Shown: piece after piece, positions 36,096 to 40,498 of the stretch
How the letters are laid out: the number at the start of each line of letters is the position of its first letter
How positions within the stretch are numbered: the stretch's first letter is position 1
Origin: a bacterium BMS3Abin01
GTDB taxonomy: Bacteria > Actinomycetota > Thermoleophilia > BMS3ABIN01
DNA: 59,514 nucleotides
Direction of reading: 5' to 3'
Assembly (NCBI GenBank): GCA_002897715.1
Contig: BDUA01000011.1
Coordinates: 1 to 59,514, forward strand
Made by a program: the position numbers and the translations under genes
The notes under the pieces: model-generated
The model's database searches: none
What the model was told of the DNA's origin: nothing
The model's input: only the letters and a program-made list of their open reading frames with translations

Positions 36096-36359
36096 ATGGA
36101 ATTAAGCGAGGAAACTGCTACCGATTTGTCCGGCAGCGGGCAGATGACCAGTGAAGTACACGACCTCATCATGCATAGCGCCATTGCGGAAAAGGTTTGG
36201 GAGTTGCTGGACCACACGCTTACACTGCCCGATATCGCCGCTGTGATCTCGTCCGAGTTCGGGCTTCCACGTGAACGCGCCCTGTCCGACACCCGGGAAC
36301 TCGTTGATATCTTCAGCAGGGCGGACTTCGTAACCGTCTTGCGCGCACCGCAACACTAG
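36096..36359 (+). CDS. PqqD-like peptide-binding protein (RiPP recognition element)
   Basis: 87 residues with the winged-helix PqqD pattern: AEKVWELLDHTLTLPDIAAVISSEFGLPRERALSDTRELVDIF, matching the family theme of a W-E-L-L-D turn, an I-A-x-x-I helix and a final D-T-x-E-L-V/D-I-F helix. PqqD-type domains bind leader peptides of ribosomally made, modified peptides and hand them to maturation enzymes. A Shine-Dalgarno AAAGGAG is 10 nt upstream. It is driven by the sigma-54 promoter at 35.92 kb. No radical-SAM, cyclase or protease gene adjoins it, which is odd. A 44-residue ORF with a lasso-type leader lies 4 kb downstream. Confidence 0.75.
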   Translation: MELSEETATDLSGSGQMTSEVHDLIMHSAIAEKVWELLDHTLTLPDIAAVISSEFGLPRERALSDTRELVDIFSRADFVTVLRAPQH

Positions 36360-36391
36360 AACCACAATTTTTTTCCCACAGCGGTTAATCA

Positions 36392-37420
36392 CTACCGCTT
36401 GCCGGCCGCGGCGCTGGCTACCCATCGCCTGACTGTTTCCATATCGGATCCCAGCCGGCCTGCTATCTCATTGCAATCCATACCCTTTTCGCTGAGCTCC
36501 CTGGCGCGTGCCTGCCGGTCTCGGTATGCCTTGCTGCGACAGGCGTTGGAACAGAAATAGCGGTTCGTGCGAGCCGTGTAATGATCGATTTCAAACCAGG
36601 TATCACACTGCCGGCAGCGGCGGTAATCCTTCTCCTGTGTTATGGACTGGGAGAGTTGAAGCCAGAGGGCACCAATCAGGTTGTTGGGTACGAAATAGAG
36701 GCTCCAGCCGTTCAGGTGCCGGTCATCCCACAGTATCCTGGGAGAGATGCGCCTCTCCAGGCACCGGTTGGCGATGGCCTGCACCGCCAGCAAGGCGGTC
36801 CCGGCCAGGTTGCCCGCCCGGTACATATTCAGGCTCTCCGGATGGCTGCGATACCATCTTAGCTCACCCGGATCCACTTTTGGCAGCAGCCGCGAGGCGA
36901 CGCCATTGGCGGAGATCTCTCCCGCAGCCATGTCTGCTTCCACCCACCGCATCAGCGGTGAAAGAAATGCGTCCAGTCCCCTGCCGTCCTCATCCTGGAC
37001 CATATCCCATATCCGTAAGGCTTTACGCATGGCGCGTATCTCATTCCGCCATGACTCCAGGGGCTCCATCCGCAGGTAAACAGGAGAACTGCCCGCGTGT
37101 GCCGTCTCACGCCCGAACCCCATCAGCCCGTACTCATCGGCAAAACCGATGATGTCTTCAGGCTCCATGCCGGTCTCAGCGAATGCCCGAAACAGACATT
37201 TTTGCTCAAGAAGCGGGTTATACTGCTTCATGTCATAGGAGCCGGGGCCCTCGGAGAGCTTGGCGGCGATCAGTCTCCCCGGCGCAGACCCCTCACCGCG
37301 GTTTCCGCTGTTCCCATTGTCGTCGATGCCCCCTGATGAATCTCCGGCCAACGCCGCATCAACCAGCGTGTAGCCGGCCTTATTCACAAACCAAATAAAG
37401 TCAAATATCTCTCCTGGCAC
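36392..37420 (-). CDS. Putative zinc-finger/HTH DNA-binding protein (CGNR-like)
   Basis: 342 residues from GTG at 37420. That start has a GGAGGGG Shine-Dalgarno 6 nt upstream, whereas the ATG at 37435 contains this motif and has no ribosome site of its own. The N-terminal ~250 residues are unrecognised. The C-terminus has a treble-clef zinc motif (CRQCDTWFEIDHY ... RYFCSNACRSKAYRDRQ) as in CGNR-type proteins, followed by an HTH-like helix pair (MDCNEIAGRLGSDMETVRRWV). Probably a transcription factor. It is convergent with the PqqD-like gene (32 bp between stops) and divergent from the beta-propeller gene, so it may control the local genes. Confidence 0.65.
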   Translation of the reverse strand: MPGEIFDFIWFVNKAGYTLVDAALAGDSSGGIDDNGNSGNRGEGSAPGRLIAAKLSEGPGSYDMKQYNPLLEQKCLFRAFAETGMEPEDIIGFADEYGLMGFGRETAHAGSSPVYLRMEPLESWRNEIRAMRKALRIWDMVQDEDGRGLDAFLSPLMRWVEADMAAGEISANGVASRLLPKVDPGELRWYRSHPESLNMYRAGNLAGTALLAVQAIANRCLERRISPRILWDDRHLNGWSLYFVPNNLIGALWLQLSQSITQEKDYRRCRQCDTWFEIDHYTARTNRYFCSNACRSKAYRDRQARARELSEKGMDCNEIAGRLGSDMETVRRWVASAAAGKR

Positions 37421-37454
37421 AAAAAACCCCTCCATATTCGATATCGTTACGGGA

Positions 37455-37483
37455 ATTATATCGGAATACGTATTGAATGTCCA
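37455..37483 (-). promoter_or_regulatory. Promoter of the zinc-finger protein gene
   Basis: On the minus strand: TGGACA (37478-37483), 17-bp spacer, TATAAT (37455-37460). A second candidate, AAGACA-N17-TATAAT, spans 37501-37529. Initiation from the first near 37448 leaves room for the Shine-Dalgarno only if the GTG at 37420 is the start. Confidence 0.6.
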
Positions 37484-37529
37484 TCGAAGTAGCGGATACA
37501 ATTATAATCGGTTAACTTGCATTTGTCTT

Positions 37530-37794: not shown

Positions 37795-40251
37795 ATGAAA
37801 GTTGCATTGAGCAACACTAAATGGCAACTGCTGCTACTGGCAACGCCGCTGGTACTGATCCTGGCGATAGCTATCGCCACCAGCGGCATGTCAGGCGCAG
37901 CTGATGCCGCGTACGGCGGTTACGGTTGCGGCGCCTATACGCCCTGCGACCAGGCTCCGCCCGCCTCTTACGGCCTCGGCAACGAGTTGCTGTATGTGGC
38001 CAACGGTGACGCCAGCGACGTACTGGTGATCGATGCCAATACCATGCGCAAGGTGGACACCATACCCGTGCCCGATGCCGACCCGGGCGGAGATGCCTGG
38101 GAGATCCACGGCATGATCCCGTCCCCTGACAGGAGCTCCATGTTCGCCATAGGCGCCCTGTCCGGAACGGCGGCCGACGTTACCATGTACGAGATCGATA
38201 CGGCCACCAAGAACGTAGTGCGCACTATCGGCCCCATGTACAGCTCCAACGTCGGTTATTGCGGCTTCGAGTACGACCGCAACGACGAGAACTCCAACCT
38301 GGTCTACGCCACCAACATGGGGACACCGTTACTCGGCCCCACCGGCAGCGTGGGCGGTTGGCAGGAAGTGGATATCTCCACCGGCACCGTGGGCAGGTTC
38401 ATACCTACGGACGCCAACGGCAACGGCGAGTCCAGCACCTGTGGCGTCGCCTGGGATGCCAGCGGCACTCACGGCTACGCCGGACTGATGTTCGACGCCC
38501 CGTCATCGGAGACCGAGATGGACTGGCCGGGCGCTACCACGATGAATTACAACGCCTCGTCCGGTACATCGGGCATCTCCTACCACCAGAGCACGGTGGA
38601 CAAGGAACGCGGCCTGCTGTTCCAGTCGGGCGGCAACGGTCACGTCCTTGATGTCTTCGACATCAGCGGCGGCAATCCGGTGCTGATCGGCACCATCGAC
38701 CTGGCGGCGCTTACCGGCGTCCCCTCGGCCGAACCTCATGGCCCGGAGATCTCCGCGGCCAACAGCAACGTCCTGTACGTCAATACGCGCCAGGTACCCG
38801 ATCCCAACCCATCGGGCGGTACAGTGCTGGCTATTGACGTCAGCGATATCAACGCTCCTGTACTGATCGGCGGCTACAGCGGCACCAATAAATCATCTTG
38901 CGGTGTCTTCGCCGACGCGGACAAGAGCCTGTACTACAGTCACGCAGATCCCAGCGGTACCGGTAGCGAGACCCTGCTGGTAGCTAACGGCAGCGACAGC
39001 GATGTGCTGGTAGCTGACGTCGCTTCCATGTCCTGGGTGGACAGCATCAATATCCCGGACGCCGACCCGGCCGGAAACGCCTGGGAGATACACGGCATGA
39101 TCCCGTCTCCGGACAGGACATCCGTCTACGCCGTAGGCGCCCTGTCCGGCACCTCGGCTGACGTGACCATGTATCAGGTCAACTCGGCCAACGACTCTGT
39201 CGTCGGCACTATCGGACCCATGTACGGCTCCAACGTCGGTTACTGCGGCATCGAGTACGACCGCAACGACGAGAGCTCCAACCTGGTCTACGCCACCAAC
39301 ATGGGGACGCCGTTACTCGGCCCCACCGACAGCGTGGGCGGTTGGCAGGAAGTGGATATCTCCTCCGGCACCGTGGGCAGGTTCATCAACACCGATGCCA
39401 ACGGCAACGGCGAATCCAGCACCTGTGGTGTCGCCTGGGATGCCAGCGGCACTCACGGCTACGCCGGACTGATGTTCGACGCCCCATCATCGGAGACCGA
39501 GATGGACTGGCCGGGCGCTACCACGATGAACTACAACGCCTCGTCCGGCACTCCGGGCATCTCCTACCACCAGAACACGGTGGCCAAGGAACGCGGCCTG
39601 CTGTTCCAGTCCGGTGGTACCGGTGGAGTCCTTGATGTCTTCGACATCAGCGGCGGCAACCCGGTGCTGATCGGCACCATCGACCTCGTCGCTCTCACCG
39701 GTGCGCCTTCTACCGAGCCTCATGGTCCGGAGATCTCGTCCATCGACGAGAACATCCTGTACGTCAATGTTCGCCAGGTACCCAGCCCCAACCCCTCCGG
39801 GGGATCACTGCTGGTTATCGACGTCAGCGACGTTACAGCTCCGGTGCTGCTTGGGACGATACAGGGCACCAACGAATCGTCCTGCGGCGTCTTCGCCATG
39901 AGCACAGCTTCATGGAACCCCGGCCAGCCCGCCCTGAGTCTCACCAGGGGCACGGTCTACTGGGCCTCCGTGGCTGACTACAACAACCGCATCCTGTCCG
40001 TCGACTACAGCATCGGCAACGCCGGACCGGACGCCAAGGACGTCACCATCGCCGGCACGGTCAACACCGGCGGCGTGACCTCGGTGAACACGCCCAGCCT
40101 GGCCGGCGACATCGCCGGCGGCGGCAGCGGCGCCTACATCGTCGAGTACTATGTGCCCGTCGGCGTAGTGGCGTTCAGCACCACCGTATACGCAACCGCT
40201 CAGAGCGGCGCCACCATCTACGACTACCCCGGTCCGTACCCCGGACCTTAA
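37795..40251 (+). CDS. Secreted protein with tandemly duplicated beta-propeller
   Basis: 818 residues. Signal peptide at about 1-40 (LLLLATPLVLILAIAIATSG), then a Gly/Tyr/Cys-rich segment. Residues ~64-380 and ~393-705 are two close copies of a YncE/LVIVD-like beta-propeller, with repeated strands such as LVIDANTMRKVDTI, GVLDVFDISGGNPVLIG and VLAIDVSDINAPVLIGG. Each copy has three conserved Cys (GYCG, STCGVAWD, SSCGVF). The C-terminal ~110 residues resemble a CARDB/DUF11-type beta-sandwich and end Pro-Gly-rich. Ligand unknown; it resembles LVIVD-repeat and selenium-binding-like propellers only in general form. A 44-codon ORF with a strong ribosome site follows 47 bp downstream. Confidence 0.8.
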   Translation: MKVALSNTKWQLLLLATPLVLILAIAIATSGMSGAADAAYGGYGCGAYTPCDQAPPASYGLGNELLYVANGDASDVLVIDANTMRKVDTIPVPDADPGGDAWEIHGMIPSPDRSSMFAIGALSGTAADVTMYEIDTATKNVVRTIGPMYSSNVGYCGFEYDRNDENSNLVYATNMGTPLLGPTGSVGGWQEVDISTGTVGRFIPTDANGNGESSTCGVAWDASGTHGYAGLMFDAPSSETEMDWPGATTMNYNASSGTSGISYHQSTVDKERGLLFQSGGNGHVLDVFDISGGNPVLIGTIDLAALTGVPSAEPHGPEISAANSNVLYVNTRQVPDPNPSGGTVLAIDVSDINAPVLIGGYSGTNKSSCGVFADADKSLYYSHADPSGTGSETLLVANGSDSDVLVADVASMSWVDSINIPDADPAGNAWEIHGMIPSPDRTSVYAVGALSGTSADVTMYQVNSANDSVVGTIGPMYGSNVGYCGIEYDRNDESSNLVYATNMGTPLLGPTDSVGGWQEVDISSGTVGRFINTDANGNGESSTCGVAWDASGTHGYAGLMFDAPSSETEMDWPGATTMNYNASSGTPGISYHQNTVAKERGLLFQSGGTGGVLDVFDISGGNPVLIGTIDLVALTGAPSTEPHGPEISSIDENILYVNVRQVPSPNPSGGSLLVIDVSDVTAPVLLGTIQGTNESSCGVFAMSTASWNPGQPALSLTRGTVYWASVADYNNRILSVDYSIGNAGPDAKDVTIAGTVNTGGVTSVNTPSLAGDIAGGGSGAYIVEYYVPVGVVAFSTTVYATAQSGATIYDYPGPYPGP
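37984..39903 (+). repeat. ~990-bp direct duplication inside the propeller gene
   Basis: Copy 1 about 37984-38939, copy 2 about 38974-39903. Several stretches, for example those encoding the GTHGYAGLMFDAPSSETEMD segment, are nearly identical in DNA, including synonymous sites. The duplication is therefore recent or kept uniform by conversion. Confidence 0.85.
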
Positions 40252-40298
40252 GGGCGAGTCGGAGATAACGCGGCGAACTGACGTGAAAGGAGAACCAG

Positions 40299-40433
40299 AT
40301 GGCCTCTAAACAGAGTGACCACCGGGAGCCTTACGCCAAGCCTGAGCTGGTGAAGCACGATAACTTGAAGGATGTAACCTTCGAGTGCCCCAACTGGCAG
40401 TGCAGCGTAACGGTTCCAGCGCCGCCGGCCTAG
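40299..40433 (+). CDS. Candidate RiPP precursor peptide with lasso-type leader
   Basis: 44 residues, ATG with an AAAGGAG Shine-Dalgarno 6 nt upstream, stop TAG, followed by a strong terminator. Residues 12-27 (YAKPELVKHDNLKDVT) fit the Y-x-x-P-x-L ... H-x-N-L-x-x-x-T leader theme that PqqD-like B1 proteins bind in lasso peptide systems. The presumed core is FECPNWQCSVTVPAPPA, with two Cys four residues apart and a Pro-rich end. It has no Gly/Ser/Cys at the expected lasso ring start and no acid at core position 7-9, so a lasso fold is unlikely. A Cys-based modification or disulfide loop is more plausible. Probably cotranscribed with the propeller gene. Confidence 0.65.
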   Translation: MASKQSDHREPYAKPELVKHDNLKDVTFECPNWQCSVTVPAPPA

Positions 40434-40466: not shown

Positions 40467-40498
40467 CGGAGGGCGGCCCCCACGGGGGCCGCCCTCCG
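40467..40498 (+). terminator. Strong GC-rich terminator hairpin after the precursor gene
   Basis: Stem of 13-14 bp (GGAGGGCGGCCCC pairing with GGGGCCGCCCTCC) with a 4-nt loop, 34 bp after the precursor stop. The following GTCATTTACGG is only weakly U-rich, so termination may need help. Confidence 0.65.

Follow-up and report, generated by a model that had tools for sequence, protein, structure and literature searches.

A short ORF that places a lasso-type leader in front of a core with two Cys raises two questions: whether it is a gene at all and, if so, what kind of product could come from such a core. The ORF lies in the window, i.e., the whole 59,514-nucleotide stretch of the bacterium BMS3Abin01 (contig BDUA01000011.1) that we analyzed, just downstream of a gene for an exported protein (Table 1). 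As judged from sequence comparison, the ORF is a real, translated gene. We consider it probable that this gene supplies the precursor (A) for a family of lasso-leader RiPPs that mature into something other than a canonical lasso and are tied to cell-surface proteins.

Results

Table 1. Features of the precursor locus and its surroundings (positions in the window).
Feature	Position	Strand	Remarks
Weak PqqD-like protein	36096..36359	+	29 bits; N-terminally short, matching the profile from position 12
818-aa exported beta-propeller protein	37795..40251	+	Upstream gene; ends 47 bp before the precursor
C-terminal ~105-aa Ig-like domain of the 818-aa protein	39934..40248	+	Common to proteins upstream of most precursor copies
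Shine-Dalgarno-like AAAGGAG	40286..40292	+	Precedes the ATG of the precursor ORF
Precursor peptide ORF, 44 aa	40299..40433	+	Encodes MASKQSDHREPYAKPELVKHDNLKDVTFECPNWQCSVTVPAPPA
Lasso-type leader block Y(-17)xxP(-14)xL(-12)....N....T(-2)F(-1), residues 12-28	40332..40382	+	From sequence, alignments and positions in PMC10368454
Predicted core ECPNWQCSVTVPAPPA with W-x-C-S motif, residues 29-44	40383..40430	+	From alignments; cleavage site inferred from Thr(-2)
GC-rich hairpin 3' of the precursor ORF, without a T tract	~40468..40497	+

The local features named in the initial annotation, which are the ORF, the Shine-Dalgarno sequence, the 3' hairpin, CPNWQC and the Pro-rich tail, all hold in the sequence. 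The two Cys of the Pro-rich tail are four residues apart, and the predicted cores are of the ECPNWQCSVTVPPPPA type. The hairpin has a perfect 13-bp stem, lies 34 nt past the stop codon, and gave z = -5.0 against shuffled sequences; no terminator-like site was called there.

Recognition of lasso precursors by B1 is reported to need Tyr(-17), Pro(-14) and Leu(-12), and their processing Thr(-2) (PMC10368454). When T27 of the ORF is set as -2, residues Y12, P15 and L17 fall exactly at -17, -14 and -12. The exact motif Y..P.L.{9}T occurs once more when the window is read in six frames (119,024 positions), where about one match is expected from composition. Because about one chance match per window is expected, the motif by itself is no proof; the proof is conservation.

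A protein search of the organism's own 1.5 Mb genome returned seven further copies of the precursor, six with the same core and one divergent. Among 99 relatives, the precursor was present in all 19 genomes of the family, which span seven genera, and in none of 80 outside it; a profile search found it in 19/299 genomes of the class, exactly the family, and in 0/280 from other families. Each family genome holds 4-12 near-identical copies. The ORF does appear to be a RiPP-type precursor, as first proposed, but it is not a single gene: it is one member of a multi-copy set that is scattered over the genome, hardly varies and occurs throughout the family. A scan of genome contigs with the narrow pattern N[LV][KR][ED][IVL]TFEC matched named records of Thermoleophilia, Gaiellales and Actinomycetes MAGs; such a scan yields names and no proof of absence, and the absence of the precursor outside the family rests on the sampled genomes instead.

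Selection on the precursor is strongly purifying, with pN/pS of 0.24 and dN/dS of ~0.14 over 67 distinct 29-codon blocks whose synonymous sites are near saturation. Y12, P15, N22, T27, C30, C35, S36, V39 and P40 are invariant in 67 distinct DNA sequences, and L17 and Glu1 of the core are nearly so. The claim of a lasso-type leader is thus upheld by both its spacing and its residues, and the leader motif and the CxxxxC core, on whose conservation the initial annotation had staked its proposal, are conserved in 19/19 family genomes. The peptide matched no NCBIfam, Pfam or PHROGs model above threshold, the Ogr/Delta-like zinc finger of Pfam reaching 14.5 bits against a gathering score of 26.3 bits. 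No Rfam families were found around the ORF, no relatives among viral contigs, phages and plasmids, and nothing among the open-access papers searched that describes such a peptide family.

Lasso-type precursors usually yield antimicrobial or signaling products, and by this precedent the ORF could encode a secreted, bacteriocin-like peptide. We find this highly improbable, given that each genome carries 4-12 scattered and very similar copies, that the core hardly varies across seven genera, that 19/19 genomes have the peptide, and that no dedicated exporter or immunity gene was recognized beside the copies. Because the core is near-invariant and the copies are many, a structural or surface role is favored over an antibiotic one.

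Weak profile matches gave a second group of ORFs (group II), one or two in most family genomes. These have the leader of the first group (group I) and very different, hypervariable tails rich in His, Gly, Asp and Ser, e.g., YEKPSLSRRGNIRDITFNHSSWTCSIGFDDDDDHGHDD. Classical lasso leaders have Gly(-8); this position is Asp or Glu in most group I copies, but some of them (G000:C9) have Gly, as do many group II ORFs. W-x-C-S is kept in nearly all group II ORFs, with its Cys aligned to core position 7 in most. Because it persists despite the different tails, W-x-C-S is the conserved element of the core, and it may be the site of modification. Small, partly tandem ORFs with lasso leaders and short cores (EYQKPELTEHENLDEVTKG...) were also seen in another actinobacterial family (L201, L202, L203), some of them adjoining radical SAM genes.

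In the 818-aa protein encoded upstream, two halves that closely resemble each other precede the C-terminal domain, which AlphaFold modeled as a beta-sandwich (pLDDT 91). A fold search with this domain returned insignificant matches only (best E 0.02), including adaptin-ear and MSP domains, some of them solved peptide-bound; we therefore take the predicted structure only as an Ig-like beta-sandwich. The domain is present in 19/19 family genomes at 11-39 per genome, and weakly in 1/70 outsiders; it is 2-4 times as numerous as the precursor peptide. Among the 64 testable precursors, i.e., distinct ones for which 400 bp or more of upstream sequence was available, 49 start no more than 130 bp downstream from a gene whose product carries this domain at its end, and 15 (about a quarter) are without a domain-gene neighbor, such as the copy adjoining hemC. 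The upstream partners include propellers, a phosphatase-N-like protein, and a multiheme cytochrome whose gene precedes an operon for a Tat molybdoenzyme. Many genomes have a locus with the order domain protein, precursor, lipoprotein, HprK-related kinase, domain protein, precursor. The C-terminal tail of the lipoprotein (L009 1958-2509 and orthologs), W..GGI.I.VPP.P, resembles the C-terminus of the adjoining precursors.

The close, operon-like linkage with the domain-protein genes would also suit a small conserved protein that is no RiPP and is used uncut, for example alongside the exported proteins as a partner that binds metal or protein, with a leader likeness that is convergent. The weak zinc-finger-like match of the peptide and the look-alike tail of the lipoprotein, whose gene separates the precursor from the second kinase, point the same way. 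However, the exact lasso register, the hypervariable tails of group II behind the same leader, the co-distribution of the precursor with B2 (below), the kinases beside precursors, and the absence of a signal peptide from a peptide whose neighbors are exported make this explanation improbable.

The initial annotation had listed B2 as missing and had offered the PqqD-like protein at 36096 as B1. Both B1 and B2 are in fact encoded in trans: on contig G000:C14 of the organism's own genome, genes for an HprK-related kinase, B1, B2 and a DUF2079 membrane protein follow one another with overlapping ends, and this order is repeated in sister genera. The precursor system probably does not use the protein at 36096 as its B1, because this protein is a weak, short match and because a PqqD gene of this type lies near a precursor in the nearest relative only. 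Its gene is convergent with that of a 369-aa protein with a C-terminal treble-clef/HTH region (36096-37501), a pair also present in G001 and G005.

Every family genome (19/19) encodes PqqD-like proteins, and 16/19 have a Transglut_core3 match that passes the Pfam cut-off; the two genes are adjacent in most. The main B1 has four PDB matches, all of them PqqD-type proteins that bind RiPP leaders; those from lasso systems match best, with TbiB1 (5V1U/5V1V) first and TfuB1 (6JX3) included. Its score against NCBIfam lasso_PqqD_Bac is under the cut-off (60 vs 80 bits). B2 exceeds the cut-off of NCBIfam lasso_biosyn_B2 (NF033537; 44 vs 33 bits), and its catalytic Cys, His and Glu are invariant in 14 sequences. 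Full-length B2 of the lasso type was present in 16/19 family genomes, compared with two weak matches in 130 others; the three family genomes in which it was not found are 69, 78 and 92% complete. Because the B1/B2 genes are far from the precursors, we infer from the leader and the shared distribution that B1 and B2 serve the precursor. There is good support for the view that the precursor is handled by lasso-type leader processing.

HprK-related kinase genes are linked both to B1/B2 and to precursor copies, the second kinase lying ~0.75-3 kb from the latter. The best model for the kinase, HprK_rel_A, is under its cut-off (62 vs 200 bits). NTP_transf_5, a PsmN-like partner of HprK-type kinases (PMC9266682), is encoded in 11/19 family genomes, mostly on the B1/B2 contig. 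The predicted structure of the DUF2079 protein is poor (pLDDT 57).

Core positions 7-9 in group I are Cys-Ser-Val or Cys-Ser-x, with Cys7 and Ser8 invariant, and most group II ORFs also have Cys-Ser there. An acceptor Asp or Glu was never seen at core position 7, 8 or 9 in group I, and a canonical lasso ring is therefore impossible. This agrees with the earlier suggestion of a RiPP outside the normal lasso class in which the ring-forming residues are missing.

No macrolactam cyclase is encoded in the B1/B2 operon. The view that the genome has no cyclase-like protein was nevertheless dropped, since the second of two Asn-synthetase homologs in a glycan cluster of the own genome (G000:C16) lacks Cys2: one homolog has the normal MCGIAG, the other MSGIAG without the glutaminase Cys. 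Cys2-to-Ser homologs lie near a normal homolog and/or radical SAM genes (L207 1340-3223 on G000:C16; L209-L215) and were present in the other sister genomes inspected; in the glycan cluster, SPASM or B12-type radical SAM genes recur nearby. Lasso cyclases typically lack Cys2, and the Cys2-less homolog is possibly an amide-forming enzyme that acts in trans. The peptide might then be cyclized after all, e.g., through activation of the side chain of the nearly invariant core Glu1. Against this, the homolog scores 271 with the NCBIfam lasso cyclase model (cut-off 525), less than with an EPS amidotransferase model, a full-length Asn-synthetase homolog was not detected in G003 (98% complete, 11 precursor matches), and the residues at core positions 7-9 offer no Asp or Glu. 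We judge trans cyclization of the lasso type to be unlikely.

Cassettes resembling GeoRSP and SynChlorMet, with genes for an HprK-like protein, PqqD, a SPASM radical SAM protein and a peptidase, were observed at L076 7146-10021 (G000:C18, in the own genome and separate from B1/B2) and at L039 1756-3094. The C18 proteins score under the SCM/GeoRSP cut-offs, and neither a B2 nor a group I precursor was found there. At L039, the radical SAM gene is followed by a 61-aa ORF that contains Cys (...NCKCQAPQVSGPPTGWCSGVFGESCSTVGSY) and may encode the precursor for this cassette. The C18 cassette was set aside as a maturase because it has no group I precursor and because the candidate precursor of the related cassette is of another type.

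Discussion

The system described here resembles the paeninodin, pseudomycoidin and BsfA lasso systems in its YxxPxL....T(-2) leader (BsfA has Ile at -2) and in its split B1 (PqqD-like RRE), B2 (transglutaminase-like protease) and HprK-type kinase (PMC9266682, PMC10368454), and also, in 11/19 family genomes, in an NTP_transf_5 gene. Unlike them, it has no Asp or Glu at core positions 7-9 and no cyclase in the operon, and its precursors are multi-copy, scattered, nearly invariant in the core and coupled to exported proteins. With PQQ and mycofactocin (PqqA-PqqD, MftA-MftB) it shares a small conserved precursor, a PqqD-like protein and a housekeeping-like distribution, but it differs in its many copies per genome, its lasso-type leader, its B2 protease, and the lack of a radical SAM maturase beside the precursors. 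The HprK-like and PqqD-like proteins are also found in SynChlorMet and GeoRSP cassettes, which combine them with a SPASM radical SAM protein.

If the ORF is the precursor of a non-lasso RiPP, B1 would bind the YxxPxL leader and B2 would cut after Phe28, releasing ECPNWQCSVTVPxPPA. Before cleavage, the HprK-type kinase may phosphorylate the invariant Ser36 of W-x-C-S, as in paeninodin-type clusters. The two Cys could form a disulfide or another link, or undergo other Cys/Trp chemistry, and the peptide would be exported to act at the cell surface with the upstream-encoded proteins that carry the Ig-like C-terminal domain. From its operon position, one might guess that the DUF2079 protein glycosylates or exports the product. 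A more specific version holds that this is a RiPP-based surface system, in which leader proteolysis and the kinase, perhaps with DUF2079, make a W-x-C-S peptide that is bound or attached to the domain proteins, often with one peptide gene per target protein. Taken as a whole, this version is tentative, and we think it rather unlikely.

The enzymes that bind and cut lasso leaders are known from antibiotic-like lasso pathways. In the present family, the same leader is found throughout on cores that barely vary, exist in many copies, cannot form a lasso and are linked to exported proteins. The case is a warning that lasso-type B1/B2 genes by themselves do not predict lasso peptides, and precursor groups I and II, B1, B2 and the two kinases provide a concrete substrate set for in vitro study. 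If our reading is true, the B1/B2 machinery would extend to a housekeeping, surface-related role.
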